From positions 20,447,564-20,511,563 of the forward strand of contig CAIIXF020000007.1 of the NCBI GenBank assembly GCA_903813345.2: DNA of 64,000 bases, read 5' to 3'. The position numbers and the translations under genes were made by a program. This document shows positions 10,111 to 44,290 of this stretch, in pieces. The notes below the pieces were generated by a model. The model was not told the DNA's origin. It made no database searches and saw only the letters and a program-made list of their open reading frames with translations. This stretch comes from Owenia fusiformis (lineage: Eukaryota > Annelida > Polychaeta > Sabellida > Oweniidae). The stretch's first letter is position 1; each line of letters begins with the position of its first letter.

Positions 10111-10183
10111 TACCCTTTGCATTCGTTTGACTTCACTTCTTAAAAGAGAGCTTCGTCTTCAACTAGACTCTGCACGCAGGGTA
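10111..10183 (-). mobile_element. R3 ultra-short inverted-ended element, copy 1, with 9-bp target duplication
   Basis: This is a 73-bp unit starting TACCCTTTGCATTCG and ending CTGCACGCAGGGTA. Both flanks carry the identical 9-mer CTATTTTGG directly abutting the element, a perfect target-site duplication. The interior CTTCTTAAAAGAGAGCTTCG is shared by all copies in the window. It cannot encode anything. A 9-bp duplication is what Mutator-type transposition gives (8-11 bp); that class assignment is inference. The orientation is arbitrary; I take the GCGCGCAGAGTCTAG end as 5'. Confidence 0.9.
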
Positions 10184-11533
10184 CTATTTTGGCAAATATA
10201 ATGGATACCACCCCAATCCACGCACTGTCATATGCTCAGTGTACTGTTTTTGCATATGAAATAATTTGGTGATTACAGATGTATTAGCTGATTAGTCAAG
10301 TATATACTGTCAAACCAATATACTGCTTCTTCGTATAAAATACTTTAGTGGATAATATTACATATACAATTTGTCTTTATGATTTGCCTCACATATTTCC
10401 AAGATAAAGGCTACACGAAGCTATTGCACAATGTATGAGAAACCATGGCCTTCAATCTATTAGCTTCTTTCTAGTTGAAGCCAGAAATAAGTGATGAGTA
10501 TCAGAATGGTGTAAGCCTACCTCATCCAAGATTTAAGCTACCCAAGTTTTCGAACATGATTTTAATCTGGGATATTGACGCACTTGCTTGAGGCGATTTT
10601 TATTTCTTGTTAATAGGGAATCAAAATCCAGATGACAAATGACAAATTGATATCCAAGTGTTCAATATCTTTGACAAATGGTCCCTATTATATTCTCTAT
10701 ATTGGGTCTTAGGGAATGACTAATGAGAGGTGAGAGTAATTGAAAATAGAGCCTTCCCTCAGAGATACTCCAATAAAACCACTATGAAACAAGGATTTTC
10801 ATTAACTTCAAATAGTAGGATTTTGAAAGGGATTATCCACTGAATTAACCCGATAATCCAATTGATTCAGAATAAGCGTATCAATTATCGATGGCTTCCT
10901 ATTTTCTACTTAGCAGAATTGCTTAAGTTGCGCTTAATGTAGTTTTGAAATGTTAGCACTTGGTTCTCTCATGGTAAAGATAACACAATGTATAACATGG
11001 GCGAGAATGCATCTTCAAATTGCTTCATCTAGTGTAATATTTTTGCCCCAAAAAAACGTTTTTCATACTTTATCTCCATGATGTCCACTCTTTTCAGTGT
11101 TTTGGTTTGAGTGAGTGAGTATACGTCTCTTCTGATCTGTACTTCAAGACAATGTTGCCTCTATATACAACATCAGAATGCAACGCGTGTTTTGTTTGAT
11201 CCTATTTAACTCACCCATCTTCGTAATTTTAAAAAACCGACCATCTTACCACTTTCCCATGCTCGTAGAACTACGATATTAACTGTTTGTACGATAAAGT
11301 AAATTCTGCATTTTGTTTGTCGAAAAGAACTTCATTACACTAATATAATAAACTTGCTGCTCTTTCTTCAAACAATTAGGGAATTCTTATACATCATCTG
11401 GGATAATGGCTATAAATCACGATGATATGTAAATGACAGAATTTATGAATGATCAAATCGTGATAAGGGACTGCTTATTGTACACTGCTGCATCTTTAGA
11501 CTTGCTGAAAAAGTATGATACCACCCAAATCAC
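10184..11533. other. Stretch without recognised feature
   Basis: No supported gene or repeat copy recognised. Confidence 0.3.
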
Positions 11534-11609
11534 TACCCTTTGCATTCGTTTGACTTCACTTCTCTAAAGAGAGCTTCGTCGTTTATGACTAGACTCCGCA
11601 CGCAGGGTA
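11534..11609 (-). mobile_element. R3 element, copy 2, with 9-bp target duplication
   Basis: This 76-bp copy has the same orientation and ends as copy 1. The flanking 9-mers are CCAAATCAC on the left and CCGAATCAC on the right, one mismatch in nine. It carries a slightly different interior (TCTCTAAAGAGAGCTTCGTC) and a short insertion before GACTAGACTC. Confidence 0.88.
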
Positions 11610-12018
11610 CCGAATCACTTATAAACAGTTTGCTGGAGCCTCGCAGGATGGTTAGTACTACTATGGTTTAAAGGTTCCAGAAATGGAGCTGTACAATGGC
11701 AACATTATTTATTACGCTTGATATAAATTAAATAATTCATATCTTTAAAACTTAAAAATCTATATCTAGTAGGTGAGTATTTAAATAAAAGCATTTTGGC
11801 AAACTCTGTCCAAAAATTGAACACTATGGTCTCATGAATTTACGGCAGTCAGCATGTATTTATCTTATCTCCTCATATATATGGAAATCATACATCGGTA
11901 TACATACAACCAGAACAATGTATTCTATACAGTTTGCCTTCACCAATTTTTGATCAAATAATGGATTGATTTGATTTTGATTCCTGAAAGTAAAAAATAT
12001 TAGTGAACGTTTAAAAAT
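11610..12018. other. Stretch without recognised feature
   Basis: AT-rich and possibly upstream of the candidate coding exon at 12019. No promoter motif is recognised. Confidence 0.3.
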
Positions 12019-12285
12019 ATGGCGTCCAGTGATAAAACCTTTCATGCATGTCATCTCGATCGATCCGATCATCCGACCATCGCGCGGGCCAAAGAAAGGC
12101 CTGTCGTCGTCGACAGTCAGAATGATTCCTTTTCACAGATAACCATAGTTACTATAGGTTGTTCTGCCTCTGGACACTGGCCTGTCATTGAAAGCTATCC
12201 CGATTTCAGGCGTCCAAGTTTATTTGAAGAATACATGAGGATTATCACGTCGATGTGGAGTTTTGGTCTATACCTGGAATTCTAG
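12019..12285 (+). CDS. Candidate coding exon or small protein (88 residues), unknown function
   Basis: An ATG at 12019 lies in good animal context (A at -3, G at +4) and opens an 88-codon frame starting MASSDKTFHACHLDRSDHPT. The first half is far richer in GC and CpG (TCGATCGATCCGATC, CATCGCGCGGGCC) than its surroundings, as a selected exon or CpG-rich promoter segment would be. Composition is ordinary soluble protein: no signal peptide, no membrane segment, no motif I recognise. It may be a first exon spliced within the frame (a weak donor, ATAG then GTTGTT, lies near 12158), or a short intronless gene. I cannot name a family, and a chance CpG-rich frame remains possible. Confidence 0.35.
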   Translation: MASSDKTFHACHLDRSDHPTIARAKERPVVVDSQNDSFSQITIVTIGCSASGHWPVIESYPDFRRPSLFEEYMRIITSMWSFGLYLEF

Positions 12286-13310
12286 AAAACCCAGGAAACC
12301 AATAGCTTATGGTTAATTGGAGATATATCGATGACTAAGTCGTAACGTTTCGTCGTAAATAAACTTATACGGCTTAATACAGGTCATTTACTAGATAAAC
12401 CAATATCACGTTGACATTATTTACGACGTAATCATCAATCTAAAGTCTTGCTTTGACCTATCTTGCATCTAGCAATGCATACTTGAAACGATGATCTATT
12501 GGTTGCATCTCAGATTATACAAAATAAGAATATAAACGCAAATGCAAATACACATGATACTATGCACTTTGTTTAAGGTCAACAGTTATTGTTCCTACTA
12601 CAATACAATCCAGACGGTGTTTGCAAAAAGTGGATGTGGCTATCATGCGCGCGGGGCGGAGTTTACGGACATTTTTTAATTTGATCAATGCGGGAGATTT
12701 TAACTAACAGCCGTGTTAGGTTCATTTACATTCACATAGTGTGGATGTTACGTCCAATAATGAAAATGAAATTGTTTAACTATTTAATTGCTTCCTTCTA
12801 TTGCTACGTAAAATATAACTCATATTCTTAATGATGAGCTAAGTAGGTAATAATACATGTTTAGTAATTATTATTATTATAATATTTTATTCGTCTCTAT
12901 ATTTTACAAACATTATATTAATACAATTTGACGAAATGGATTGGACAAGAGGCTTTCGCCTATTCTAAGTCCTCTCCTTTGGTTGTCCTAGAAAATTATT
13001 ACAGTTTTATTTGTTTGTACAGGACGAGAGGCTTGAGAGGAAATGAGAGATAGAGTGAAAGGAGGAAACTACTTGTTTGAGAATCTTTTTGTAACTCTTA
13101 TGTAATTGTGAACAGCAGTGAATGTGGCTTTGTTTTCTTCATCTCTCTTACTTGCATTTCCATGGATGAGTTCTGTTAATGTTTAGTAATTAGAGATTTA
13201 GAGATTATAAAACATTTTTTCTGTGTGTGACTCACAGTATATGATAATGTCATGCGACCCAATGGATCATGTTCATGATTTGATGTACTATAGATAAATA
13301 TAGATATAAT
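12286..13310. other. Flank with a small CpG-rich spot and an ATT-rich tract
   Basis: A short CpG-rich patch (ATGCGCGCGGGGCGGAG) lies near 12645-12662. Near 12868-12884 is a TTATTATTATTAT tract. Read from the other strand, an AATAAA followed by an ATA-type tail there could be the 3' end of a retroposon, but I found no second copy to confirm it. Nothing else was recognised. Confidence 0.25.
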
Positions 13311-13858
13311 TAGGTAGCGATCTGAGGCACTTCGATCAGGGTGTTGTCGGGACAATTTCTCTTGTGACTTAGGTTATGTATTTAGGTCTATCTCAACAGA
13401 TTTTACTGGTCTTATGCGCCGCAAATGGTGCGAAAGATGTTAAAATTGCATTTTCGACCCTAAAATTCAGATTTCTTGGGGGTACATTATTATTTAGCTA
13501 TAAAACAAAAACTAAACAACCAATGCTTCTTTCTTTTGGTGTTTCTGTTAAGAGTAATCATACTTGAAATGCATATGTAAAAAAATTGAAGAATTTTAAC
13601 TTTATTTAAAAACAGCAACATTTTTTCACCCTAAAATCATAGAATTTAGGGGGGTTGAGAGACATTGATTGGAACTGATTTTTTAATTTCTCAATCAATC
13701 TCAGTTTAATATTAATGGAACTTTCCTAAAAGTAGCACCAACATGTCCCCAACACATTACCATAAAGAAAAAACTCAAACTCTAACATGTTTTTTGCCTA
13801 TATGGGTCAATTTACCTCTCCCCTCTTTCCCTTTTTAGAAGGGCGTGGCCATATTGGC
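13311..13858 (+). repeat. Left long terminal inverted repeat of the 5-kb element
   Basis: This pairs with 17790-18330 over its whole length, with only scattered differences. A 63-codon open frame (13376-13567) reappears identically on the opposite strand in the right repeat (18074-18265), with a single synonymous change seen, TGC against TGT. I regard that frame as a by-product of the repeat. Other visible differences are CCCTAAAATCAT against CCCTTGAATCAT, and the TTTTTAGAAGGGCG region near the inner boundary. Confidence 0.93.
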
Positions 13859-14256
13859 ATGTTCATCTTAAAATAAATACTTCATGTTCATATCCATCCT
13901 CCGATCACAGGGCTTCAACATCCAGAACATATTCTTTCTTTTTACCCCCAGCAATAAGCAGTTACCATTTCCCCGATTAAGAACTCGCAATCTGATTGGC
14001 TGTCGCAACACTGCGACAGAAATCATGTATACGTCATTGTGCATAATTAGATCACATGATTCAGTTAAATCAGGCGCGTCCAAATTGGTTATCGCAGGGG
14101 GAAGAAGGAGGTACGGATTCTGGACACCTGCTTAGGAGGATGGTTCATATCATGTTATCATTTTTATGTCACCAACAAAAAGTGGTGACATATTGTTATG
14201 GTCTCTGTTCTTTTTTGACAGTGGTCAGTGGTCGGCGGTTTGTGGTTGGAGCTTGG
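13859..14256. promoter_or_regulatory. Possible promoter segment of the 5-kb element
   Basis: This is the unique segment just inside the left repeat. It contains an inverted CCAAT-like GATTGGCTG near 13992, a CRE-like TACGTCAT near 14030 and a moderately CpG-rich patch (GGCGCGTCC). These are suggestive of a promoter driving the downstream gene, but no transcription start can be placed. A ATGTCACCAACAAAAAGTGG block near 14167 has a loose counterpart GGTGGTGACATTTTGTCATG near 15060, which may bracket another, older insertion. Confidence 0.3.
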
Positions 14257-14693
14257 CAATAGACTAGATGCGAGTAAAAATAATCTTGATTTACGTCATT
14301 AAATATTCAAAATTCAAAGTGATGTCATATTTGAAATCTACATGTAAAAGTACATCTAGAAATATGGTTTCGAAAATTGTTTATCAACTTTGAAAATTTA
14401 ATTTTTTTGAAAGTGTGACTTCTAGTTCGGGTTGATTCCCCATAGACCCCATGTTACAAAATCACAAAAAGTGAAATATCTTTTCTTGTATTGGACAGAA
14501 AACATTTTCTTTTACTGGACATATTTTAATTTACATAACAGTTAGATACATAAGGGTTATATGAAAATTGAACCACTAAAACAGATGTAATTTAAGTTTG
14601 AGGGAACATTCTACTATACCCGCCATGCTATCTGACCCGAACGAGCCACCTGGTGGTGAAACTGGTAACTACTTACTCGCATCTGCGTTATTG
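14257..14693 (+). mobile_element. R1 miniature element, copy B, nested in the 5-kb element
   Basis: This is a complete 437-bp copy. It starts CAATAGACTAGATGCGAGTA and ends TACTCGCATCTGCGTTATTG, which are about 20-bp terminal inverted repeats. The interior matches the copies at 3395, 32904 and 47034, including the GGTGGTGAAACTGGTAACTA block near the right end. It lies between the left terminal repeat and the decayed gene, so it inserted after the host element was in place. No target duplication is obvious. Confidence 0.88.
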
Positions 14694-14754
14694 GTGTCTG
14701 TAACAAATTCATACAATTTCAAATAATTAACAAATACTGTATAGACTGACTTCA

Positions 14755-15062
14755 CTTGTTTTCAAAATCATCTACGTGTTTTCAGATGTTCAAATCTGAC
14801 TTTATATTTAAGATTTGACCTTCAATGACCTTTTCAAGGTCAGAAAAAGTCTTTTTTCAACTTGCTTCAAATTAACCATTTTTTCAAAATCATCTATAAG
14901 TTATCAGAAGTTCAAATCTGACTTAATGTTTGAGATTTGACATTCGATGACCTTCTTAAGATTTAAGAATATAGATTTGATAATTCTAAAGGTCAAAATA
15001 GATTTGACCTTTAGTGACCTCCTCAAGGTCAAAAAGGTATTTTTTATCTTGTTTCAACTAGG
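14755..15062. repeat. Degenerate tandem block, unit about 120 bp
   Basis: A unit beginning TTTTCAAAATCATCTA and containing GTTCAAATCTGACTT, AGATTTGAC and AATGACCTTTTCAAGGTCA occurs at about 14757 and again at about 14880. Further partial copies of the AGATTTGACCTTTAGTGACC phrase follow near 15000. The AAGGTCA half-sites resemble nuclear-receptor binding half-sites, but this may be coincidental in a repeat. The block is noncoding. Confidence 0.65.
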
Positions 15063-15138
15063 TGGTGACATTTTGTCATGTTAATGCCTTGTTTTACTTG
15101 TAGCTAGTGAATGTCTTTGAAATGACATAAGCCTAATA

Positions 15139-15297
15139 CAGCGGGACCTGGGTTAGTGAACACCTTTCTCTAGTGAACACCTGTGTAAAATGAACACCCT
15201 ATTTTCAGCACATACCTTGATTCCAATACAAATTGTCTTTCTGTATTGAAATCTTTTTTGTGGCTCTATAGATGTTCACTGTACACAGGTTTTACTT
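15139..15297. mobile_element. Small TA-flanked element of pogo/Tigger-like type
   Basis: The left end reads TA then CAGCGGGACCTGGGTTAGTG followed by AACACC. The right end, reverse-complemented, reads TAAAGTAAAACCTGTGTACA then GTGAACATC. The shared GACCT...AGTGAACANC layout resembles the termini of pogo-like miniature elements, which insert at TA. It is about 159 bp and has no coding content. It is another insertion into the 5-kb element. Confidence 0.55.
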
Positions 15298-15460
15298 TAT
15301 ACAAAACACCTTTATATTTAACTTTAATTAATAAAGTGATTATCTAATTGCAATTATAAATTGCTATCTATTATTTGCAGGGAACATGTAGCAAAACAAT
15401 AAGGGAGAATAGTAAGCTATTTAAGGCTTATTACTGTCTGATGTTCTATTATTAACTAAT

Positions 15461-17510
15461 TTGATTGATTCAATTGATGGCTTTCTCAATCCATTCCAAA
15501 TTGAGGACAATGATCATTTATACTGCATATCATCTGGAATGCCAACACCCTCTAATTTAGCAGATGATCTCTTAAATGCAGCATCCAAAGGCACACAAGC
15601 CTTTAAGCAATTTATTCAAGACCAATTTGTGCAGAAGGGAAAAAGTTTTCATAACCCCATAAAAGAATGAAACTGAAAACATCTGAATTCAATGCTGGAA
15701 TCAAAAAGGTGAAAAGCTCTGGAAACAAACTGATTGAGATTAGAGCTGAGCGCAATACATTTGGCCAGTTAGTCATGTTATCAGAGCAGCATAGTATCAG
15801 TCTAAAGCGAATATTAGAATATCCCCTGAGTCCAATACCCTTGGCTCTTGGAACACCTGATGGGCTCTTGGTTAAAACAGAAAAGTCAAAATTATTACAT
15901 GAGCTGGAAACATATGATATTACATGGACCCAAACCAGAAAAAAACAATTATAGTCTATGATGGCAATGCATTGTTCCATATACTTCCTGAGCGACCCAA
16001 AACATTTGGATTATTGGCAGAGAGGATCCTTCAGATGCTTCCTATAAGAAAGATTCAATTAAAGAACCAGAAAGAATAAGCAGGCGTGTCTCCAAAAAGC
16101 TAATAATAAAAGGACCTAATACCAGAATTCCTAACAATTGGAATGAATTCCTTTTAAATGATGAGAATGAAATGCAGCTGAGTCAGTTGATCCTTGAAGA
16201 ATGGAAAAAGATAAAAATGCTCCTAAACTCAAAGAAAGACAGATTCATGTGAGATCTGTACAGTGGTAACCAGTGATAGAACTACTGCTACACATACAGT
16301 TGAATCAAGCCTGAAATCTTCCCACAAAGAGGCAGATACAAAAATTATACTCCATGCAATTAACATGAAATGAACCTGAAAATACAGAAAAAACTATAGT
16401 TGTGAGATCCCCAGATAGCGATGTTTCTGTACTTCTTGCACACTTTCCAATCTTATTCAAACTCCATTAATTTTTGACACTGGTAGTGCAGACCACATAT
16501 GACTTATTAAAGGTGCAACAATTAGTGCAGGGGGGTAATTCAACGATCATCGACCAGTGTCAAAATATATTTAAGTTTGGATATTTCATCAAGAGTAACA
16601 TATATTTTTATTATCTACAAAGAAACTCCCTTGATGAACATTATTTCAGCTGATATTCCCCTTGAAACGTGGTGAATCTTAAAAATCTTAAAAAGTGGGA
16701 CTCCCTTTATAGAAGCTTTGAACTGAATTTACACTTCTAAATTGAGAGTTTATCCATACATTTTAAGAAAATAGATATGTCAAAGAAGATGTTAAGCCAA
16801 ATATTGACCGGATAGCTCAGAAAAAAGAAAAAAAATTGAATTTTCTCTCTACAGTCCCTTGTCGCCCCTTTAATGTAAAGGAAGTAGGAAATGCGCTCAG
16901 TTCAGACATTTGTAAATTTGTAATGCTTTACCAGCCTTCCATTCATTCACTGGATGTAATTCCTTCAGTGCCTTTGTGAGAAGGGAGAAAGTGTCCCCCC
17001 CCCTAAAATTACTTATGAGAATTTCAAAAAGGTTTCGGCACCATTGGAGGGGTCATTAGTGATCAAACTGCTAAATGTGCTGAGAAGTTTACTTGCCAGA
17101 TGTATGGAAACAAAAAGTGTTCAAATATAAATGAGCTGAGATATACCTTATTCAAGAACAAATTTCAACCAAAATCTGCTCCAAGTGTGATAACAAGCTA
17201 TGAAGGCACTAACAATAAGCCTCCTACCCCCATGTAAAGATTCATTACAGCAGCATCTGGCAAGGGCCAGTTATCAAGCACACATATGGAAACTTGCCAA
17301 CATCCCCTCCCCATCAATTCCCTCCCCTGTGTCACATGGATGGAGGATGAAAGATGGCCATTTGGATTTCAATGGGTGTCAAATCCAGATAAAATTCTAC
17401 CCCAGGACCTGGTAGATGTAATCGTATTAGATGATACTTTAGAAGATCAAAATGAAGAGGAAGTTTATGAAATACAAAGCTTTATGGATCAAATATATTC
17501 TGGTGAATAA
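15461..17510 (+). pseudogene. Decayed transposon-borne protein with nuclease-like acidic motifs
   Basis: Fragments of one protein appear in order, broken by stops and frameshifts. They are a segment at 15461-15667 (NPFQIEDNDHLYCISS, then DPIKK-like NPIKE); 15667-15954 (FGQLVMLSEQ); about 15944-16080 in another frame (VYDGNALFHILPERPKTFG); 16049-16252 (KDSIKEPERISRR, then NNWNEFLLND); 16251-16371 (TVVTSDRTTA, SHKEADTKIILHA); about 16396-16450 (VVRSPDSDVSVLLAH); and, after a noncoding gap, about 17085-17510 (GNKKCSNINELRYTLF, LPPCKDSLQQHLARASYQAH, IWK, then an acidic C-terminus). I recognise this order as a large metazoan family common in cnidarians, molluscs and fish and usually called uncharacterised. 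The D, EAD and D-S-D motifs recall PIN/FEN-type nucleases (inference). The N-terminus and the usual cysteine-rich tail are missing. Roughly 16540-16850 does not read as protein and may be an insertion. Confidence 0.75.
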
Positions 17511-17789
17511 AATCTACATTTGTGATGACAGAAATTCATACAATGAGTAAAATTAATATTATGACTGACTCGTGAACTGTGTATTAGATAATATTCAACT
17601 TCAGATTTTCAATATTCTTATATCTCGAGCCTACATAGAAAAAATATTGTATTATAAATAATTCACAGGTGTTATATGTATACACATAAGTGAAAATATT
17701 CTATGGTAATATATTTGATAAAAAACATGATATGTACATGTATTCATTTAATGTGCCATCATGCTACTGTTTAAATCCACATGTATTAA

Positions 17790-18330
17790 TGGCCACACCC
17801 CTTTTATAAGGGAAAGAGGGGAGAGGTAAATTGACCCATATAGGCAAAAAACATGTTAGAGTTTGAGTTTTTTCTTTATGGTAATGTGTTGGGGACATGT
17901 TGGTGCTACTTTTAGGAAAGTTCCATTAATATTAAACTGAGATTGATTGAGAAATTAAAAAATCAATTCCAATCAATGTCTCTCAACCCCCCTAAATTCT
18001 ATGATTCAAGGGTGAAAAAATGTTGCTGTTTTTAAATAAAGTTAAAATTCTTCAATTTTTTTACATATGCATTTCAAGTATGATTACTCTTAACAGAAAC
18101 ACCAAAAGAAAGAAGCATTGGTTGTTTAGTTTTTGTTTTATAGCTAAATAATAATGTACCCCCAAGAAATCTGAATTTTAGGGTCGAAAATGCAATTTTA
18201 ACATCTTTCGCACCATTTGCGGCACATAAGACCAGTAAAATCTGTTGAGATAGACCTAAATACATAACCTAAGTCACAAGAGAAATTGTCCCGACAACAC
18301 CCTGATCGAAGTGCCTCAGATCGCTACCTA
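17790..18330 (-). repeat. Right long terminal inverted repeat of the 5-kb element
   Basis: This is the inverted partner of 13311-13858. It begins near ATTAATGGCCACACCCCTTT at the inner side and ends GCCTCAGATCGCTACCTA, followed by the flanking AAT. Confidence 0.93.
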
Positions 18331-18962
18331 AATAGGGCTTCTGGTCTTGCTTTAAACGACAGTATTTTCTAAAGATCAGAAACAAAAAAGTATTTTTATT
18401 GGCTTAAATAATAAAAGCTTGAGATGCTTCACATTGTACTGATAAAACCGAGTAAATTGAATCATATGTGTTGTGATTAATTCTTTCCGCACATTACAAA
18501 CGATATTTCAAACTACACATAATTTCTGGTTACATTTTAGAATGACCCCTGGTCATGATAGAGTTATATCGCGACCTTTCTGGAAGAACAGAACCATGAA
18601 GATAGAAACACCAAAATGAAAAACTATAATATCATAGGCACGGCATCATTATATGGTTGCAATCTGATTACAAATAGGCTTTTATTTTATAAAGCCGAGT
18701 GTTAAACACCGTATCTCACTTTATAAAGACATACAGACTTATCTCGCTCTCCCCTTTTCATCCAGTAAAGCACAGCATTTATCTTCAGAATCTCTACATA
18801 GATACCAATGAAGGTTTTTTCCCGTGGTGTTGTTTGTGCTTTAATGGTACGGAATGATAAATATAATTGCCATCTGTCTGTCTCTCACCCCGTATTTATC
18901 ACAAAGATTATTGTAGCTAGACATGACTTACGTATTACAGTACAGAAGCACATACATGTATT
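18331..18962. other. Stretch without recognised feature
   Basis: No gene, RNA or repeat copy recognised. Confidence 0.3.
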
Positions 18963-19155
18963 TAGTGGAAATACCAAGAAAAAAACATGATTTATTGATT
19001 ACCTATGGAGCAACCTAAGAATGATGTTATTTGTTAATGTACAGGGTGTGCCACAAAATTTAGAGGAAATAACAATAAGAAACATGATTTATTGATAACC
19101 TAACATAAGAATAATGTTATTTGTTAATGTACAGGGTGCGCCACAAAATTCATTT
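18963..19155. repeat. 97-bp direct duplication containing a transposon-end motif
   Basis: Two adjacent units start AGTGGAAATACCAAGAA and AGAGGAAATAACAATAAG. Each contains AAACATGATTTATTGAT and TTATTTGTTAATGTACAGGG, then TGYGCCACAAAATT. The TACAGGGTGTGCCACAAAAT portion looks like one terminus of a TA-inserting miniature element, but I see no matching inverted terminus. The duplication may therefore have captured a solitary transposon end. Confidence 0.75.
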
Positions 19156-20610
19156 TTAGATGATGTATTACTTTCAAGGTTTTAGGAATGCGAAGAACAA
19201 TCGAATGTTAACAATTTTCATTTTAAGTTATTCAATCATAGAACATTTCCTTAATTCCAAGACCCATCCACATGGATACAGTGTTCAATACAATGAAGGC
19301 AAGTCCAAGTTATCAATTAGTACGTTTAAGTTTAGGCAAGATTTTTGGGTTTTCACATCAGACTAGTCCCTCTGCTATGAAAAAGCTTAAATGGGGTTAA
19401 TTATGGATTATTAGATCTAATGAGATGAGCTGTAGTCAGGTCAATATTGGAAATATTATGTTTGGTGCTACAGAAGACGAAGAAGATGATGATCTGGGCA
19501 AGAATATAATTGGAAGAACTCTTAAACATTTTGGGACACCATGTTTGATACATAAAACCATAAATATGGAACCCACAGATGCTGCACTTGAAATGATGAA
19601 TCCCCACCTGCTAGCTACGTATAAACGTACTTATTTATGATCATGGCAATGCCCTCTATTTTCATTAATCTTTGCATTTTGCATACGTCTTAAATAGCAC
19701 TAGCTTCTTCAGTGATGTATCTAGGTATTTCATACAAAATATATACATGATATATGAGGAACACAACAACACTGAACACGGAAAAACAATGACAATTTAG
19801 TAAAACAAGAACTTCAAACCGGAATAAAGATATACCCAGATCAGGAATGGAATATCCTCGACCATTTACCTTTCACGTTTCAAGTGGGTCAGATCTTAAA
19901 TGTTCAGACACAGTTGTCCTGCATGTTACTGTTTTCAGAGGGCTTCCACTTACAAGTTTCATTATGTGCATAGTTGATTTATTTTTCCAAAAAGTAAAAT
20001 GCAATTGTGAGTAGCCACAAAGTATAGATCATGAGAAGCCAAGGCATTACGAATTAAGTTAACCAAACATCAAAAAGATGGCAGCTAACTTCAAAGGTGT
20101 ACCCTTTGTAAAGTGTTTACTTCTTGACTCTAATAAGGAGCTTCAGAGGATGTAGATTATGTGATTATAGATTTCAGTTGTATATTACGATGCAGGGTAT
20201 CAACGATTTTTTGCACAAATTTCAAAGATGCATGTCTTTCTAGTTTTACACATCAGAACCTTTCTCTATAAGTGAACTCCGTGGGGGATAATAGGTATCC
20301 ACTTAAATGTTGATACTGTTCTTATTGAAGATAATGGCTTGATTTGACGAAATTATATTGTGAGGGACAGTCTCTCTATTCAAAGGGATGGCAGAGACGG
20401 CGGATGGCTCGTTCAAGCTCGTATATGTTTGAGATTTAAAGATGTTGATTTAAGAGCAAAAAAGGCTCCAAAACTTAATGAAATATGTAGTTTGGATGTT
20501 CATTTATGTCTGTGGATTATATTTTATACCACAAACACTTTATAAATACCTGAAATTTGCAATAAAAGTGCCCAAAAATTGTTGTTTCGAAATTCCCCAT
20601 TTTTCCTGTA
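19156..20610. other. Stretch without recognised feature
   Basis: Frames at 19160-19366 and 19425-19640 are partly protein-like. The second contains a GATEDEEDDDLGKN acidic run, but it begins without an ATG and overlaps a frame on the other strand. I cannot support a gene. Confidence 0.25.
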
Positions 20611-21664: not shown

Positions 21665-21853
21665 TATATTTGTTGAAAAATGAAAGAGATAGTGACACTT
21701 TTTAATCTTAAGTTTATACCAATATTACAAACACATATCTATTTTTTTCATTATATATTTATTTCTTCATAATACATACATTTGTTTTATACTACATTGA
21801 TTTATTTTTGCAAAACCTTTGCTATTAGATCTTTAATTATAATATATTTTTCC

Positions 21854-22331: not shown

Positions 22332-23216
22332 CATTAGGTCAATGCAATTTTAGAATCGCCAAACAGACTTTAACACGTGGTACAATAGGGAATACGGTGT
22401 TGCCAAAACCTTGTGAGGGGAGTGTGCTATAGTGTCGTCATACAACAAATACTCAAAAATATTCCCAACATGGCCTCCCTGGACCTACCATTATTATGTC
22501 ATTATAGTTAGTTATTGATGTCATATGATATGGATATTATTACTTGAATTGTAGTAACTACAAGAACACACTATTCTCGAGACATCGTGATTTCAAAATT
22601 CAAAATTAAACATTCGCCATTTTTCAATTCAGAATTTCAATCGCGAGTTTGCATTTCCATGCAAAAATTCAAAACACAGGAGGTGGTCAAGAAATTAGCT
22701 CATTTTTGGATCGCTGTTTAGTCACTTATATATGATACAAGTATATATGATATTTTCGCCTCATCCAGTAGGATCAATCTCACTGTGTTGTCGACTTGTC
22801 TTATCTTTAAGCAAGTACATATCATGTAAACTGTAACATCTCCTTCTCGACAGCTCAATTAATTTGATTGACATGCAGCCCAAGGTTATGATTAATTCTA
22901 CTTTCTATATTCAGAAACTACATTTAATTGAGTACTTCATCTGGAAGCGAACTTCACCTGGAAATGCTTGCAGATTATTTTTGTAATTTGTTTGTGCATT
23001 CCCCTTCATAAGTTTTGTAAACCTATTAAGACTGTTCTAAATGATATGATTATTTTGCTCAATGTTATCATGAGCTTATGAAAGGTAAATTCCCATCCAT
23101 TTCTCCATGGTTATTGCGCATGTGTCTCGCGATCTGATTAATCCATTCGCGAAAATACTGGCGTAGTTTGATGGGAACTCTGTTTTGCGAAATTTATGGA
23201 GGGTAGTGTAGTTAAA
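22332..23216. other. Stretch without recognised feature
   Basis: No supported gene. Short AT-rich inverted phrases around 22590-22680 (ATTTCAAAATTCAAAATT and similar) are low complexity. Confidence 0.3.
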
Positions 23217-23289
23217 TACCCTTTGCATTCGTTCGACTTCACTTCTTAAAAGAGAGCTCCGTCTTCAACTAGACTCTGCACGCAGGGTA
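23217..23289 (-). mobile_element. R3 element, copy 3, with 9-bp target duplication
   Basis: This 73-bp copy has TACCCTTTGCATTCG and GCACGCAGGGTA ends. The flanking 9-mers are GTAGTTAAA on the left and GTAGATAAA on the right, 8 of 9 identical. The sequence is nearly the same as copy 1. Confidence 0.88.
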
Positions 23290-24962: not shown

Positions 24963-25023
24963 TACCCTTTCCAGAAATTAAATTAAAAACTTTAAAAAGA
25001 GCTTCGTTTTAAGGTTCAGGGTA
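24963..25023 (-). mobile_element. Probable degraded R3 copy
   Basis: It starts TACCCTTTCC and ends TTCAGGGTA with the shared internal phrase AAAAAGAGCTTCGTTTT. It is about 12 bp shorter than intact copies, and no target duplication is recognisable, as expected of an old insertion. Confidence 0.5.
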
Positions 25024-26824: not shown

Positions 26825-28746
26825 GTAGGTTTAGTAATTGCTTAACAGAAATACCATTTATAAAATAATAGTTATCGATTTCATAAACAACTTAACCACT
26901 TGATGTAAACTAAAATGTTGCTGACTTGAGTTGAAATTCCATAGCCAATGTTTTTTTAAATACCTTATTTTCAATGAATGAATACATTTAAAAATATCTG
27001 ATTCGCGAAATACATGATCACAATGGCTATTGTTTCCCGCATTTAAAACATCTACGACGAAGTTTCCGAGTCTCTCTTTATCTATAAGAAGGTGTGCATC
27101 CCTCTTTATCCAATGGTTATGGGGAATATAAACTCCAACATATACTACAGCCTGTCATGAATCACACAATTGGGTTCCAATTCCAGGATGACTGAATTAC
27201 CACATGATGTAAAAATTAGAGCGAACGGGTTTGGAATGTGTTTGACATCATAAAGGTTCAGGAGAATTGAATTAATCATGAATAATGTTCGCATTAAGTA
27301 GATATCGCATAAAAAACATAAATAAGCAGATTGTGTTGTTTATTTCCTGGCTGATTGAAAAATAAGAAAAGTTATCATCAAAAATGGAAACAATGAATTG
27401 ATCTATTTAACCACCGTATTTTTAAGATTGTAATTTGAGGGAAGGTCGACAACGCTCTGAGTCAAGAAAAATCTCTATTTAGCTGGTGGGAAATTGAAGA
27501 GAAAAAGTGGACGTTAATAACCATAATAGTTTGAATCAAGTTGGTAGATTGTTTAGAAGTTTTGAAAATGATTGAATTTATAGCGGATAGAAATGACATT
27601 TATGTATCAAGATGAACATAATTATGCCATATTCTACTTTCAAGGTGTTTATAACACAAAGGAGTTAGAGCAACTGAACCTTGTGAATCAAGCTAAAGTG
27701 ATGTCTCGGGAAACTGTACTATTACAGCCTTGAATTAATGAGATGTAGAATAAGCTCAGTTCGGATTAAAACATTATTATTTATTGTTCATTTGTCACTC
27801 GTAAGGCATCGTGGCCTTTACCTCGTTCCGGTTAAGATACACTTGGTTTAGATGCACAATGTAAACTCTAACTAGAGATAAGTAATGCTAATAAGAACAT
27901 CTTTTTGTCTAGTACTAACTATTGCGTTCACGAGTGTTTCAATATAGTCATAGAAAACTCTCTGAACATCCATTTTAAGAAGATACCGTTTCGTTTTCCT
28001 TTCGTGTATAATTCTGTGAATTGTTCTTACTAGTTCATGTACTTATCTTGCAATTAATTTAAATCTTGTTTTCGTTGCTATTCTTCTTACTTAGTGATGG
28101 ATCTCCATAGATAATAAGTACAACAATTGATTTACAGCCTAATGGATACCTTCATTACATTAATTGTGCTCTTATTGCTAGGATAAGACCACTTTAGACT
28201 TTGTGTTGGTAAAGGAAAAGTGAATACCTCAAATGTTATAAAATGTATTCGAAGAGACCCTTTTGGAAGTGGCTTGAAAAACTAACATATCTTAATCGCT
28301 CTCAAACCAGACTGCATCATATCCGTTTTCAAAATGGGTAGTATCAATGGGTTTTACATTTATCAACCTTACATTAACAACATGAGTGTAATATTCTTTT
28401 AGGGAACATACATTCATATTCAAGGAAGGAGTTAGAAGATAGTTCAAACGGATGTTTTGCCATACAGTTTAATAGAAAATGTCAGATATGGCGAGGAATG
28501 GATCGTCAGTAATGTGTCAGAATATTAAAAAAGCTACCTTGAGGTCACACCCAGTATGTAAGCCTGTCTATCAACACAGCTGTCTACGAGAATGCTACTT
28601 ACATAGCCAAGCGATTAAAAATATATCCCAGACCAAACAAACAATCTACTACAACAACACTGAGTAAACCGTACCCATTTCAGTTCAGAATATAATATCA
28701 GTTCCCTACTATATGCTATGCACGGGCACATCAAACCTTGGCGCAG
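26825..28746. other. Stretch without recognised feature
   Basis: About 1.9 kb with no repeat copy, RNA gene or coding frame that I can support. It would be intron if the exon at 26755 is real. Confidence 0.3.
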
Positions 28747-29278
28747 GGTATATAGAGATTATCCTATCCTGAGCCCCTGTAGCAAATATATTAAATTGGC
28801 CTCGGGATAATCCCAATATCCTGAACCGACTATAGGATAATATGTTTATCCCATACCAATCTTGGTCTTCTGGTTCACATTGTTCAATCGTGGAAATATT
28901 TTAGAATATTCATGTCCAGTTTTGTTTTCTTGGCCGTGTGCGGATTTTCCTGTTCTCTCAAATATTCCCACTTTTATTTTCTCGAATGTTTGATTGATTA
29001 AGTGGAAGCTCCTTCCCTTTTTTAAACCATCAAACAGATCCCGATTGTCTGTGTTTTCTCCATTGTCGTTTACAGTCATTACGCGAACATTACAACTTAT
29101 GAACAAATATGCTAATTAAACAGATCATCCCATAGTCGGTTTAGGATATTGGGATTATCCCTTGGCCAATATAATATATCTACCCTCGGGACATACGGCC
29201 CTCGGGCAGATATATTATATTGGCTTCGGGATGATCCCAATATCCTGAATTTCATATAGGATAATCCCTATATATTAC
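28747..29278. mobile_element. Multi-layered palindromic element (CTCGGGATAATCCC family)
   Basis: The outer ends are inverted (GGGTATATAGAGATTATCCT at left, complement AGGATAATCCCTATATATTA at right). Inside, 28785-28842 is mirrored by 29127-29184 around phrases CTCGGGATAATCCCAATATC and GATATTGGGATTATCCC. A third arm at 29205-29260 repeats ATATATTATATTGGCTTCGG then GATGATCCCAATATC. There are therefore at least three related arms in alternating orientation. An 86-codon reverse frame (28846-29106) sits between the inner arms. Its composition is protein-like, but no family is recognised. Confidence 0.8.
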
Positions 29279-29331
29279 CAAAGACGAAGCTCTCTTTTAA
29301 GAAGCTAAGTCGAACGAATGCAAAGGGCGGG
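29279..29331 (+). mobile_element. R3 element, 5'-truncated copy 4
   Basis: It contains AAGACGAAGCTCTCTTTTAA, then GAAGCTAAGTCGAACGAATG and CAAAGGG, the 3' two-thirds of R3. The TACCCTGCGCGCAG end is missing where it abuts the palindromic element, so either a deletion or an insertion junction removed it. Confidence 0.75.
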
Positions 29332-29872
29332 CTACGTTTTGTATCCTTCTCACTATTGATGAATATCGAGCGTGTAATGTACGTTACCCTGATAAGTACA
29401 CTCCCCTCCATAAGTTTGGCAACCTTTTTCCCCCATTGAACTACGTGTTAAAGCCTCTTTACGTTTGAATTTTTATTTACTTAACCGGCGATGAAATAAC
29501 TTATAATATTGATGGAAACGTAACTTGACTTTATTTCCAATACTTCCAAATTTTCTCAATTTTTTTCCTCAATTACAATAGGTCGAAAATTGATGATGAA
29601 TTTGAGGAACTTTTTAAAATCGACATTCCCATGTTAACCAATATTTGCATACGTACATTCCGATTAAGGTAGGCCAGATGTACAAATAATTTGAACTGTT
29701 TATCTGACTTGTCACATGTCCTAATGTCATTTTACCTTCTTTTCGTTCATTCCAGAATTTGTTGAATCAAATACCATGCCGGGCATGACTAACAAACACA
29801 TTTTTGTTTGAAGAGAGGCGTGAATATATGTCAAACTCAATGCTGCCCTGAGCGCTAAGAGCGTAGTAATTA
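29332..29872. other. Stretch without recognised feature
   Basis: No gene or repeat copy identified. Confidence 0.3.
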
Positions 29873-30526: not shown

Positions 30527-30613
30527 TACTCCGCGCGCAAAGTCTAGTTATAAAACTACGAAGACGAAGCTAGCTCTTTTATAAGAGGCGAAGTCGAACG
30601 AATGCAAAGGGTA
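30527..30613 (+). mobile_element. R3 element, copy 5 (87 bp)
   Basis: It starts TACTCCGCGCGCAAAGTCTA and ends GTCGAACGAATGCAAAGGGTA (21-base end shared with the other copies from TCGAACG onward). It is longer than other copies through a partial duplication around AAGCTAGCTC. No clear 9-bp target duplication remains. Confidence 0.82.
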
Positions 30614-33965: not shown

Positions 33966-34008
33966 TCATGTATCACGTGTTTCCTGGTCGTTATAATTAC
34001 GAATAAAG

Positions 34009-38199: not shown

Positions 38200-39357
38200 G
38201 GGGGGATACAGAGAAGCCGTCCGTCCGTTCGATCGTCCGTTCGTGTCTCCGGGCGATATCTCAAATGAGTAGGACATCTGCAAGAGAAGGAATTTTCAAT
38301 ATGGCTTCTCAATCAAAAATGGCCGCCATTTCTTAAAAATGTAATCTTTGATAACTCAAATACTAGTAGACGGATTTGTTTCAAATCTTATATGCTAATA
38401 CCTCGGAACAAAGGGAACTAAAGAGCTTTGTTCAAGAAGAGATTTCTAAGATGGCCACTAATTTTAAAAATGGCCACCATTTTTCGTGAAAAACGTAATC
38501 TTTGGTAGCCTAAATACCAGAAATCAGATTCGGTTCAACTTTTATGTGGTGATGCCCAGGGACACAATTGCTCTGTTTGAGAAAGAATTGCAAGGTGGCG
38601 GTTGGATTTCAAAATGGCCGTCATTTTTCGTAAAGCCCATAATCTTTGATAACTCAAATACTAGTAGACGGATTTGTTTCAAATCTTATATGCTAATACC
38701 TCGGAACAAAGGGAACTAAAGAGCTTTGTTCAAGAAGAGATTTCTAAGATGGCCACTAATTTTAAAAATGGCCACCATTTTTCGTGAAAAACGTAATCTT
38801 TGGTAGCCTAAATACCAGAAAACAGATTCGGTTCAAATTTTATGTGGTGATGCCCAGGGACACAATTGCTCTGTTTGAGAAAGAATTGCAAGGTGGTGGT
38901 TGGATTTCAAAATGGCCGTCATTTTTCGTAAAGCCCATAATCTTTGATAACTCAAATACCAGTTAACGAATATGCTTCAATTCTATATGCTGAAGCCTAG
39001 ACAAGACAACACAGAAAGAATTTTTAAGATAGCGGCTGAATTTAAAAATGGCAGCCATTTTTTGGCAAAGAATGCATTCTTTGATAATTTATCAAATGCC
39101 AGTAGTAGATTTTGTGCTTATGTTTAGAGATAAAGTAGGTCTGCTGAAGAATATGTTTTCAAGATGGCCACTATTAATCAAAATGGCCGCCATTTGTCGT
39201 TAAAATGTTATCTTTGATAACTCAAATACCAGTTGACGTATTTGGTTCAAATTTTATATGCTGCTACCTCGAGACAGAAGAGCTCTGTTCAAGAGGAAAT
39301 TTTCCAGATGGCCACTAATTATCAAAATATGTTTTGTTCGGTGGGATTTGCTACTCC
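38200..39357 (+). repeat. R2 dispersed repeat, copy B, with recent 298-bp internal duplication
   Basis: It starts GGGGGATACAGAGAAGCCGT followed by a CGTCCGTTCGATCGTCCG-rich tract and ends near TTTTGTTCGGTGGGATTTGC, like copy A at 8990. The body is a series of about 150-bp units (AATCTTTGATAACTCAAATA, AAGATGGCCACTAATTTT, AAAAATGGCCACCATTTTTC). Units 38343-38640 and 38641-38938 are nearly identical over 298 bp, each made of two sub-units, which indicates recent unequal exchange. The 77- and 60-codon frames reported there are repeat artefacts. Confidence 0.88.
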
Positions 39358-41976
39358 AGTTATAAAATAAATGTTCTGCTTGCATGATAATAACAGAAAG
39401 AAGTAAACATCACGTGCAATTTAATATTTTAAAAAGTAGTACATGTACCTTCCAACCTTGCAACTTTGAAATCGTTGTTGAGGTATTAATAAAAATTCCG
39501 AAAACGTTCAATATTGTATTAAACATCTTTGTTCCCATTTGTAATTGTGAATTTAGCTGTTTTGCTTGCTCGACTTCAATTTGAATTACAATACTGAAAT
39601 GAAAACAACGATTTTGGGTCTTAAATTAACATCGTAATATTAACATGTTGATTAGTTAATTTGCTGTTATGTAAAATTACGTAAACGAGTTTAATGCTGT
39701 GTCATGTCATGGGTTGTGCCAATATAATATAATGAATACAAATATATTAGTTCAGAACACAAGTATTAAGTACAAACACATTACAAAACAATGGCTCGGT
39801 TGCATTGCCCCACTCTGTGATTATTTCCTTTCCCGTTGCATTGATTAAAATGGACGATCATTTGTTATTATCATTTACCGTGTTTACAGTGTAATATTAA
39901 ACTATAAATATGTTCTTTTTCTCAGAAAAAATTGGTTCATTGGTTTCTACTTCACATGATAAACGTTCTACTTATGTCAGAAAATCTGTTTCTGATGGAC
40001 GAGTAGCGTATTATAGTATCAACTGGTCAATAACCAATATTCATGTCAGTCAAACTAAAATGAACATGCAGAAAGTATAATATTAAAAATACGATAACGA
40101 ATCAATGGAGATATATTTTATGTTCCCGATAGTGATTCGCTACGCTCGCAGTCATTGTGAACAACAATTCAATAACACTTCATTTTCATTTATGCAATAG
40201 TAAATATTCTTACATTTTGTTAAATGATCGCGTCGTGAGCACACTTTAGCATTACCAAGACTCGTTAATAATACCATGTTGTTGGTACTTCTAAGCTAAT
40301 TAAGGTTATCCACGAAACCTTGGACGTTCATCATTTTCACAACACTGGGGTTGTGTCTCGTAGATCACGAATCCTGAAATTCAAACTGTCTTTAACAATA
40401 AAAGACGATTGCAGTTCACGAATCGTGACTCGATTTATTTTCGAGAACTTTGTTGTCTTGTACAAATACATGTTTATCATCATGGTTTGATGTCACGTCC
40501 TGACTGTTTGATGTCACGTCCTGACATCAGTCACTTGCCAAAAGATATGATTATCTTGAGATTTATAGGACTTTTATTTATTGAGCCAATAATAAACTGA
40601 AGATCAAATGAAGAATTTCTCGTTTGGAAGCTCACTTTTATTGGAAAATCTCTTGTTATATTGTATGTTGAATACTCCAATTTCGACTGTTATGTCTCTT
40701 TATCATCTGGAATACAAGGGTAATGGAGGTCGCAAAAGATTTCCATACTTGCGAATCGTGTTTCACCTTCTTCCCTAATAGCAATGGCAATCATTTATCT
40801 CCTGTCATAATTCAATAATACAATTATCTGATTCTTCAACTGTAAATGTTTCTCATCAAGGATTACATTATCTGGAATTACAAGCTCTGGATATCTTAGC
40901 GCTATCTAATTAGACTCCGACCCAGTCAAAGAAACACAATTTTGTGATGTGATAATAACTTTGTTACTCAACTTTAAAGATTGAGGAATTCGTGCATAGG
41001 AGACTGCAACTTACGCAATTGATCCATACCTACTGTAAGTAGGCAGCCAATATAATATTGTTAAATGCTTGTGCAGAGAGTTTGTTTCAACTGAAATTAA
41101 TAATGATAAAACTATAGCTCTTCATGTTGATTTTGACTAATGCAAAGTAGTTGGAATCCCCTTTAAATCACTTATAGTGGTACTTGAGGAAAGGAGTGCT
41201 TGTACGATAAGGCTGTCGACTTGAACAACAAGGGTTCATGTATCGAACCAGGACATATGCAATTACGTCTTCATTTAATTAGTCATGACGCTGTTACCTA
41301 AATAAGAAGGAATACTTTCTACTGGCCATTTTATCTTGTAATTCATTATAAGACGATCTGATGTCTGTGGATTAAGGTAAATTGCCGTGTTCGCTGAATA
41401 TCCTACTGCAATAATTATAGTAGAATCTCTTGGAAGAATACCGCCGAGTTTCATGTCCGGCGTTGATTACTGACTGGCGAAGAAGGTTGTATTTTTGTAC
41501 ACAACAATGTAAATACAATTATTTGTCTAGAAGGAATCGGATAAATAGAGATTACAATGAACAGTGATTTATTGTAGGCTAATGCTTTGTATACTGCGAT
41601 CCTGACAATTCGAACTGCTGATTGGCAATTTTTATGTGAAAGTGCACGCTCTGCTATATTTTATATTGGGTCGTTTCCAACAGTTTGATCAAATATACGC
41701 TTGGGGCTTCTAGTGGTCTCTGCTCATTGCTAACCAGGTGCCGTCGTTATTAACCAGTCACAAGAACACGATTCTTGTTCATCTTCAATGATCACCCATG
41801 TAGATCATTGTATTCAGGATATTTGGCTGCGGAATAATTATATGATTTATTGATGGAATGCCGCAATATATCCCTGTTCCTTAAGCTCCAGAACCTCATC
41901 AATTCGACCAGGAAATGTGCATTGAACTGAATTCTACAGGTAGACAAGGATAAACTGAAGTTTGATTTACGCAGAA
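39358..41976. other. Mostly featureless stretch; possible upstream region of a first exon
   Basis: About 2.6 kb with no repeat copy elsewhere in the window. A short direct repeat of TTTGATGTCACGTCCTGAC lies at 40487-40505 and 40507-40525. The last few hundred bases may be promoter and 5' untranslated region for the candidate exon at 41977. Confidence 0.3.
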
Positions 41977-42076
41977 ATGGCGTCGAAAAAGTCCAGTGTA
42001 AAACTTGGGCATACGTTTGAAGAATGTACACGGATATTTCAAGGAACGTTTTATGCGGAGGATAATGGACAGGAAG
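41977..42076 (+). CDS. Candidate first coding exon with splice donor, unknown protein
   Basis: An ATG in strong context (A at -3, G at +4: GAAATGG) opens 100 coding bases beginning MASKKSSVKLGHTFEECTRI, continuing through FQGTFYAEDNGQE. It ends at GGAAG followed by GTTAGT (donor from 42077), phase 1. Composition is soluble and balanced and unlike translated AT-rich DNA, and GC rises locally (GGCGTCG, GCGGAGG). After the donor the sequence turns AT-rich as introns here do. I do not recognise the family and no second exon was found. This is the best-supported host exon in the window but still rests on start context, composition and one splice site. Confidence 0.4.
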
Positions 42077-42660
42077 GTTAGTATAATTCTATATAATTTC
42101 AATCTAATCATTCACCGAGGTTCATCACTGATATACATAAAAACCTATGTCAGTTGAATTTATGTCGGAAAAATAGAAAAACATGCAAGTATTCACGTAT
42201 TTTAATCTAATGTATGTGTGTATTTTGCAAATGTTGTTATTAATATAAGTTCAATTAAGTTACGATTAATGTCAGATTGAACAAAAAACTTAAATGCCAA
42301 TTCCCTTTGATATTGTTTTTTATATGAAGAAGTCGGCTTTTTCTAGTATGTATTTATCATAACAATAAACATCATATTCAAAGTTAATATAGCGACATTA
42401 ATGGCTGGCTAAGATTTATGTATTTCTTCTGGATAACTGGAACAATAACAGCTTACATCTGAATATAAAATGTTCCAATCTTATCATCGAGTCAATTACT
42501 TTACTGAGATATTAGATTTGGCGAAAGCATTACCCAACTCGTTACATTTTTATAGATAGTTAAGCCACCTGGCATAGAATTAAACAAAAATATGAGAGCA
42601 TGTAAATTATTAAATTACGCATTTAAAATACGCTATGTGGTACCATCGTACGGTTCAGAC
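42077..42660. other. AT-rich stretch, intron if the 41977 exon is real
   Basis: No repeat copy or coding frame recognised. Confidence 0.3.
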
Positions 42661-42742
42661 TACCCTGCGCGCAGAGTCTAGTTAAAAACTACCTCAAGCT
42701 CTCTTTTAAGAAGCGAAGTACGTAGAACGAATGCAAAGGGTA
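42661..42742 (+). mobile_element. R3 element, copy 6 (82 bp)
   Basis: It starts TACCCTGCGCGCAGAGTCTA and ends ATGCAAAGGGTA. The flanks GGTTCAGAC and GGTTAAACG are similar but not identical, possibly a diverged target duplication with a 1-base loss. Four extra bases lie within GAAGTACGTAGAACG compared with GAAGTCGAACG. Confidence 0.85.
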
Positions 42743-43208
42743 GGTTAAACGATATCCCCCAGAGATTTTTATTTTCTTTATGCCATTCACTGGCTACCTT
42801 GGTTGAGTACAAATTAATGTTTTAGATAAACTAAACGGAGAGAAGACCATAATTTGCAATGTCCACATTGGTTTTCACACCACAATGAGGTAAGGAGTGA
42901 AGCTATATAGACCTCAACAAAACTAATCAAATAACAAACGACTCTAAAAAAGTTTTGTTTGTCGCAAACACCTCCTGGAGTGTTTAAACGATACTCTAAA
43001 GTCCCTGGCATGTTATACGATACTTATAGAACTGATACAATTTATTTATTTTTATTTTTTATGTTTAACCCTTTCAAGTATTGAGGAGTCAAAATGAGAA
43101 ATCGAGTTGAGAGTCAAAATAACAGTCTGCTTTTACTGTTGACAGTGAATGATGCGCGTGGAAAATTATTTCACCGTTTTCAGGTTTATGTTAAGAACAC
43201 GAGCAATT
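42743..43208. other. Stretch without recognised feature
   Basis: No gene or repeat copy identified. Confidence 0.3.
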
Positions 43209-43715
43209 GAGAGGTTAAGCTTTGCATATATAATCGAAACTGAACCTGTACGTATCACTCGACCATATACAAATTCATGTAGCCTTCTCATATAAATAGC
43301 CGTTCAAATCCAGTGTTTGTTTAGACTACACCATAGCGTGTAATGATTCTATAGTATGTCATTGATGCGGTTTTATAGCTGGTTTTCTAATACATATTTT
43401 AAACGAGCTCGTTTCGTAAGATTTTTGGCGCTAAATCATGCATGACATACATCATCGTGTTCAGAAAGAATTCAACTGTGCATCGAAATCAAAATTGACA
43501 GCATAGTGTTCAATAGACACGAGTAAAATGGTTCCCGTTGACCCAACGTCAAATTTCAAAATCTCCCGTTCTAAACCCGAAACTCTGAAGCTGAAAGAGT
43601 ATCTGAAGTAGACTAAGCGCGCATAAAACTATGAGCGCTCGATACATTCCTTTGTTAATTTTTGTACTTTGCGTTCACGGTTACGTTGTGAAAAACATCG
43701 TTAGCTTAACCTCTC
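43209..43715. mobile_element. R6 inverted-ended element, copy B (507 bp)
   Basis: It starts GAGAGGTTAAGCTTTGCATA and ends AACATCGTTAGCTTAACCTCTC (final GCTTAACCTCTC), the same 12-bp terminal inverted repeat as at 23470-24853. The interior differs apart from CpG-rich spots such as TAAGCGCGCATAAA. The target duplication is not clear here. The 63-codon frame at 43631-43822 crosses the right terminus and is not a gene. Confidence 0.7.
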
Positions 43716-44210
43716 CAATAAGTCCAGTAAGGACCGAAACCCAAAGTGGACCAAAGCTACAGTTTCTAAATATGATATCATATATTTCAGTTGAACACAT
43801 CTATTTACAAGTCATGATTTAAAAATTCATGTACTCCAAATTGATCCAGGTACTCCAACGATCAGGGTGAACAAAGATCAGGGAGATCCAAAGATCCAGA
43901 GTGATCAAAAGTGAACCATATGATGTAAACAGGTTGCCTCATTTTTCAAATATTACTCTTTGATCATCATGGATTCTCATTTAAATATATTTCATTCCTA
44001 AAATGCCAAGATGGAATGTTCCTATATTCCTTTAAGATCAATACTATAATATCCGTCTTCAATTATTTATGATTGCCCATTGATTATGTCTAATTTGGAA
44101 ATGTATAAGTCAAGAATCAGAGTTAAGTATCTTGGATTAAATTATTGAAGTCAAGAATCAGAGTTAAGTAGCTTGGATAAAACCATTGCGTCATTTGAAC
44201 ACGCTTCCTA
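43716..44210. other. Stretch with short local duplications
   Basis: AAGTCAAGAATCAGAGTTAA occurs twice (about 44108 and 44149, spacing about 41), and GATCCA/GATCAGGG phrases recur at 43840-43905. There is no coding or RNA feature. Confidence 0.45.
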
Positions 44211-44290
44211 TACCCTGCGCGCAGTCTAGTTATAAACGAAGACGTGGAAGCTCTCTTTTAAGAAGCGATGTCGAACGAATGCAAAGGGTA
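44211..44290 (+). mobile_element. R3 element, copy 7, with 9-bp target duplication
   Basis: This 80-bp copy starts TACCCTGCGCGCAGTCTAGT and ends GAATGCAAAGGGTA. The flanking 9-mers are CGCTTCCTA on the left and CGCTTCTTA on the right, 8 of 9 identical. Confidence 0.88.

Follow-up and report, generated by a model that had tools for sequence, protein, structure and literature searches.

A family of very short, apparently non-autonomous DNA transposons with 9-bp target duplications in the annelid Owenia fusiformis

The 64,000-nucleotide stretch of the genome of the polychaete Owenia fusiformis analyzed here (GenBank assembly GCA_903813345.2, contig CAIIXF020000007.1, positions 20,447,564 to 20,511,563 of the forward strand; hereinafter, the window) has a GC content of 33-37% in 4-kb steps and contains many tandem and dispersed repeats; the longest stop-to-stop frame, frames running off the ends excluded, is at most 132 amino acids long. 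Within the window, nine places that sum to approximately 0.7 kb are occupied by a family of short elements, namely, six complete copies, one truncated copy and two copies that are probably divergent relatives (Table 1). The total length of the elements is 61-100 bp, the complete copies being 73-87 bp long. The overall observation of a first-pass annotation of this sequence, namely, that a very short repeated unit has transposed here with the formation of 9-bp target duplications, is confirmed by the searches of the window and by the statistics of the duplications.

A comparison of the window with a profile of the family using nhmmer, with the filters off, yielded 12 matches, of which seven, namely, the six complete copies and the truncated one, were significant (E-values from 4.7e-24 to 3.5e-14). 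Because these seven sequences were themselves the source of the profile, the E-values do not constitute independent evidence; the same copies were recovered, without any model, by a repeat finder and by BLAST. The complete copies are identical to each other at 79-97% of the positions, gaps excluded. At up to three mismatches, TACCCTGCGCGCAG is found 14 times in the window, compared to 0.56 expected occurrences; six of these matches fall at the 5' ends of complete copies, four are second matches inside those copies, and the remaining four, at positions 73, 9261, 12641 and 28737, lie outside the copies of the family. The coordinates given in the first-pass annotation are correct to within a few bases. 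That annotation counted eight copies, and the six complete copies and the truncated one are all retained here, whereas the eighth, at 24963, is only a probable member, and an element that had not been listed, at 20100-20199, is added.

The homology between the complete copies ends at TACCC...GGGTA. In BLAST comparisons that included 400-bp flanks on each side, the matches among the complete copies overran the ends of the elements by no more than three bases, and no longer shared flanks were detected within the window, which supports the earlier description of a discrete mobilized unit with homology stopping at the termini (for the element at 20100, the right end used in this comparison was 20195, four bases short of the true end at 20199). 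Abutting 9-mers with no or one mismatch flank four of the six complete copies, those at 10111, 11534, 23217 and 44211, in accord with the four duplications quoted originally, which match at 9/9, 8/9, 8/9 and 8/9 positions. At these four copies, the corresponding 8-mers carry 4-6 mismatches and the 10-mers carry 6-9 mismatches; therefore, the length of the duplication is 9 bp. For random 9-mers from the window placed 80 bp apart, the chance of one mismatch or less is 5.06e-4 per copy (1,000,000 draws), so that at least four of six complete copies would carry a duplication by accident with a probability of approximately 1e-12. Moreover, the window contains 581 TACCC/GGGTA pairs, and a 9-bp duplication is seen at these four copies only. 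The copies at 10111 and 23217 differ at only two of the 73 sites and yet have different target duplications. The family is, accordingly, a discrete unit with exact ends that is found in different targets even when the copies are nearly identical, four of the six complete copies being flanked by 9-bp duplications. A search with the 400-bp flanks of all nine places found no paralogue spanning an insertion point within the window.

These observations bear directly on the possibility that each copy is a piece of some larger repeat, be it a satellite, a short interspersed nuclear element (SINE) or the termini of a long element, with the 9-mers matching by chance. In favor of such an origin, the truncated copy adjoins a foldback repeat at 28749-29274, and isolated end-like sequences are present at 73-84 and 7641-7652. 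However, within the window, this explanation is contradicted by the pairwise homology of the complete copies, which stops at the termini, and chance duplications are so improbable (about 1e-12) that we consider it extremely unlikely. A tRNA-derived SINE, in particular, is unsupported, given that ARAGORN, run with the bacterial code, detected no tRNA genes in the window. No Rfam families matched the window at the gathering threshold.

The two ends of the unit are organized differently. The AGCTC core lies 42 nt from the 3' end in five complete copies and 46 nt from it in the copy at 42661, which contains a 4-nt insertion; in the two divergent elements, this distance is 43 and 41 nt, so that seven of the eight measured elements fall within 41-43 nt, whereas the other parts of the element vary in length. 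The last 19 nt show a mean pairwise difference of 4.6%, compared to 10.6% for the first 12 nt, mostly owed to the copy at 30527. Strict terminal symmetry encompasses all six terminal bases in five of the six complete copies and four of the six in the copy at 30527; beyond these 6-bp symmetric ends, the next ten positions give only one or two further matches. The CGAA tetranucleotide occurs two to five times per complete copy, compared to an expectation of 0.20 per 76 bp of background, and the alignment suggests that the length differences might stem, in part, from a varying number of CGAAGA-like units. The CpG dinucleotide is not depleted, with an observed to expected ratio of 1.34 in the copies and 0.71 in the background. 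The copies at 10111, 11534 and 23217 have in common GCGTGC close to the 5' end and, in the 3' part, AAGTGAA, whereas the other three complete copies (30527, 42661 and 44211) contain GCGCGC near the 5' end; from this division, we infer at least two source sequences.

The assignment of the two divergent elements to the family draws on their ends and core. The element at 24963 is below the significance threshold of the profile (nhmmer E-value of 1.4), the element at 20100 is not reported by nhmmer at an E-value of 10, and neither matches the other copies in BLAST at an E-value of 0.01. Nevertheless, the window contains, in addition to the five TACCCT/AGGGTA pairs that belong to complete copies (the copy at 30527, in which the 5' end is mutated, is outside this set), precisely two more such pairs, at 24963-25023, within 61 bp, and at 20100-20199. 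Both enclose the GAGCTTC motif, at offsets 36 and 38, respectively, compared to 37 in the two minus-strand complete copies in which it is retained. In 200 first-order simulations, which were run only after the two elements had been seen, TACCCT/AGGGTA pairs 40-130 bp apart were expected 0.09 times per 64 kb, with a maximum of two, and no simulated pair held the GAGCTTC core. The ends shared with the rest of the family and the core at the same offset suggest that both elements are probably old, divergent members; thus, the earlier designation of 24963 as a degraded copy, although not significant by the profile, appears to be probably correct as a statement of kinship. Another TACCC...GGGTA pair, at 28672-28750 (79 bp), was rejected as a further copy: it lacks the core, its flanking 9-mers agree at 3/9 positions, and 1.38 such pairs are expected by chance.

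A dispersed, short, non-coding unit with defined ends that is present in several copies and has a target duplication of constant length (9 bp, in four of the six complete copies) shows two of the traits expected of a miniature inverted-repeat transposable element (MITE). We conclude that, very likely, the family described here is a very short, non-autonomous, MITE-like DNA transposon with a 9-bp stagger. As for the enzyme, the duplication falls in the range of Mutator-like elements (MULEs), for which the excerpted text of PMC6446971 gives duplications of 8-11 bp, many MULE groups being listed with 9 bp, and we lean toward a Mutator-like transposase as the mobilizing enzyme. The first-pass annotation had compared the enzyme to those of the Mutator superfamily; the mobilized unit with 9-bp duplications stands, but for the enzyme itself, it is only the length of the duplication that points in this direction.

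Several observations weigh against this interpretation. Two of the six complete copies, at 42661 (5/9) and 30527 (4/9), have no abutting duplication; a displaced 8/9 match near the latter copy is only suggestive because 2.9% of random sites have such a match within 30 nt. The complete copies, with a GC content of 0.44-0.47 compared to 0.33-0.41 in the flanks, do not show the AT-richness that is usual in MITEs, although in the divergent elements the AT content exceeds that of the flanks (GC of 0.34 and 0.30 compared to 0.37 and 0.42). The six complete copies fold, as single-stranded DNA, no better than shuffled sequences (z from -0.02 to 0.53), and a hairpin or foldback structure was rejected for them. 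The 6-bp symmetry is far below the long inverted repeats that are typical of MULEs. No MULE or convincing transposase domain was detected by a Pfam search with 117 of the 184 open reading frames (ORFs) of at least 58 amino acids in the window, in which 12 families were matched at E-values of 0.05 or less, each by a single ORF, the best being a weak match to the 'Transposase-associated domain' PF13963 (Transpos_assoc; E-value of 0.0066). Likewise, no transposase domain was found in 67 of the 71 ORFs of at least 40 amino acids from positions 1-8000 (six Pfam families at E-values of 0.1 or less, one ORF each, the best being Antifungal_pept at 0.0021); a Pfam scan of two ORFs gave a single match, with an E-value of 0.39. 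Finally, a longer element with the same terminus next to a Mutator-type transposase frame, for which the first-pass annotation suggested a search, did not turn up in the window, where no longer element with these ends and a 9-bp duplication was found. Because the frames scanned yielded no MULE domain and the window no long partner with a 9-bp duplication, and the symmetry is very short, we describe the family as MITE-like with a MULE-type duplication rather than as a MULE.

The nearest approximation to a long partner is the 7.58-kb stretch at 73-7652, which has TACCCTGCGTGC at one end and ATGCAAAGGGTC at the other, arranged and oriented as the two ends of the family are, and, conceivably, could be a degraded, once autonomous relative. 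Its 5' end (73-84) is identical to that of the family at 12 of 12 positions, in the GCGTGC form, and its 3' end (7641-7652) matches at 11 of 12 and at 13 of 16 positions. However, the flanking 9-mers, GCATTTTCT and ACTTGGATG, agree at only two of the nine positions, the 67 ORFs scanned in this region contained no transposase domain or recognizable gene, and among the matches listed, the 5' end had none at 16 or 20 bases and the 3' end none at 20. We regard such a kinship as very unlikely.

An element of the same kind could also be served by a non-MULE transposase, that is, a relative of Merlin, P or hAT, or a member of a superfamily, not yet described, in which the stagger is strictly 9 bp. 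The target duplications of hAT and P elements are 8 bp long. The scanned frames contain no MULE domain, and the 6-bp terminal symmetry is unlike that of most listed MULEs, the inverted repeats of which are 14-500 bp long in the text of PMC6446971, although its listed values, as excerpted, range from none to 640 bp, with several groups having none. Against such an enzyme, the duplication is exactly 9 bp in all four recognizable cases, compared to 8 bp for Merlin (excerpt of PMC10045372), so that by analogy it appears to fit MULEs better than Merlin. A non-MULE enzyme, therefore, seems to us a possible but rather doubtful alternative to the Mutator-like one.

Under the Mutator-like or a similar enzymology, a transposase from another locus of the genome, supplied in trans, would bind the two unlike ends, and the unit would be cut out at TACCC/GGGTA and inserted, in a cut-and-paste manner, at staggered cuts 9 bp apart, with the repair of the gaps leaving the 9-bp duplication. 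The nearly constant segment of 41-46 nt that extends from the AGCTC core up to the 3' end might represent an extended binding arm, whereas the middle and the 5' part would tolerate changes in length. Carried further, this scheme leads to a speculative proposal to which we attach limited credence, namely, that a minimal asymmetric unit, in which one side is a fixed arm of about 42 nt and the other may be as short as about 20 nt, might suffice for a 9-bp-duplicating transposase, such that elements of 61-100 bp with 6-bp symmetry could form a successful family that is missed by the usual filters on length and inverted repeats.

Table 1. Members and probable members of the short element family and other repeats in the window
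Feature	Coordinates	Strand	Flanking 9-mers and other characteristics
Complete copy, 73 bp	10111-10183	-	9-mers at 10102-10110 and 10184-10192: CTATTTTGG/CTATTTTGG, 9/9
Complete copy, 76 bp	11534-11609	-	abutting 9-mers CCAAATCAC/CCGAATCAC, 8/9
Complete copy, 73 bp	23217-23289	-	abutting 9-mers GTAGTTAAA/GTAGATAAA, 8/9
Complete copy, 87 bp	30527-30613	+	abutting 9-mers 4/9; ACTCGTATT/AATCGTATT 8/9, 15 nt right of the end
Complete copy, 82 bp	42661-42742	+	abutting 9-mers GGTTCAGAC/GGTTAAACG, 5/9, decayed or absent
Complete copy, 80 bp	44211-44290	+	abutting 9-mers CGCTTCCTA/CGCTTCTTA, 8/9
Truncated copy, 5' part short by about 20 nt	29276-29327	+	3' end GGGCG, not GGGTA
Probable divergent relative, 100 bp	20100-20199	-	TACCCT...AGGGTA; GAGCTTC at offset 38; TCAAAGGTG/TCAACGATT 6/9
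Probable divergent relative, 61 bp	24963-25023	-	GAGCTTC at offset 36; no recognizable duplication (1/9)
Foldback element	28749-29274		ends of the TATATAGRGATTATCC type; arms of 19 nt with 95% complementarity; internal inverted repeats; adjoins the left edge (29276) of the truncated copy
Tandem array	60171-61025		56-bp unit, 14.9 copies
Tandem array	54609-55250		101-bp unit, 6.4 copies
Tandem array	38342-38991		298-bp unit, 2.2 copies
Long inverted repeat	13307-13871 / 17770-18334		565-nt arms, 97% complementary, 3.9 kb apart
Similar 30-bp stretches	23185-23214 and 29393-29422		87% similar, ACTCCCCTCCATAAGTTTGGC type

With respect to the other repeats in the window, the long inverted repeat is possibly a transposon or a recent duplication, and the two similar 30-bp stretches resemble the terminus of another transposon, perhaps a Tc1-like one. 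A de novo scan for terminal inverted repeats (TIRs) accompanied by target duplications yielded four candidates at 9 bp, and two, two, four, one, one and none at 6, 7, 8, 10, 11 and 12 bp, respectively, counts that are not strictly comparable across lengths because no mismatches were allowed below 8 bp and one was allowed from 8 bp up. No excess of other elements with 9-bp duplications was apparent in the window; the scan is blind to the family described here because it required 10 matches among the 12 terminal positions.

Beyond the window, the literal end sequences of the family did not occur in the literature searched. In the viral and prokaryotic genome contig collections, there were no matches to the right end or to both ends together, the left end had no matches in the viral collection, and one copy with its flanks had no match in a phage collection. 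A 17-base pattern of the right end was found in four viral contigs, three of which are reported by the profile, over the last 17-18 positions only and with E-values of 0.03-0.05; with short stretches of two of them read, we take these matches to be chance. The lack of relatives in these collections says little, being expected of a eukaryotic repeat, and the family may already have an entry in Repbase, Dfam or a similar repeat database.

Overall, we seem to be dealing with a small, new family of transposons of a familiar kind that is odd mainly in its tiny size and lopsided ends, and that leaves the general understanding of DNA transposition unchanged. The earlier remark that the unit is close to the lower size limit for mobilization is not established, as no such limit was found in the literature search; should the family prove equally small across the whole genome, it would provide a natural lower bound on the end requirements of a cut-and-paste transposase. 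With the MITEs of the silkworm, as described in the excerpted text of PMC2997013, the family shares short, non-coding, multicopy units with inverted terminal bases and target duplications. In the same excerpt, MITEs are usually described as AT-rich and stably folding, and the 17 silkworm families are 210-567 bp long; the Owenia elements, by contrast, are much shorter, their complete copies are GC-richer than the flanks, and they form no stable hairpin. The MUST settings employed for the silkworm were 100-600 bp for the length and 8-50 bp for the TIR; with a length below 100 bp and a strict terminal symmetry below 8 bp, the family lies under both floors, and repeat searches with such floors would therefore miss elements of this type.

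The nearest parallel that we found appears to be among the MULEs of Aedes aegypti. According to the excerpts of PMC5225508, the 14 families of this mosquito have duplications of 8-9 bp, and all but one of them have given rise to non-autonomous derivatives in which the ends are similar and the middles heterogeneous. Unlike Muta1, with its 8- or 9-bp duplications, the Owenia family shows only 9-bp duplications (n=4) and none of 8 bp, and it departs from MULEs in the 61-100 bp size of its elements, in the 6-bp strict symmetry and in that no transposase was found in the window ORFs scanned. Nevertheless, several MULE groups are likewise listed without terminal inverted repeats in the excerpted PMC6446971, and the Owenia elements resemble the derivatives of Muta1 and other Aedes aegypti MULEs in their 9-bp duplications, non-coding character, conserved ends and variable middles.

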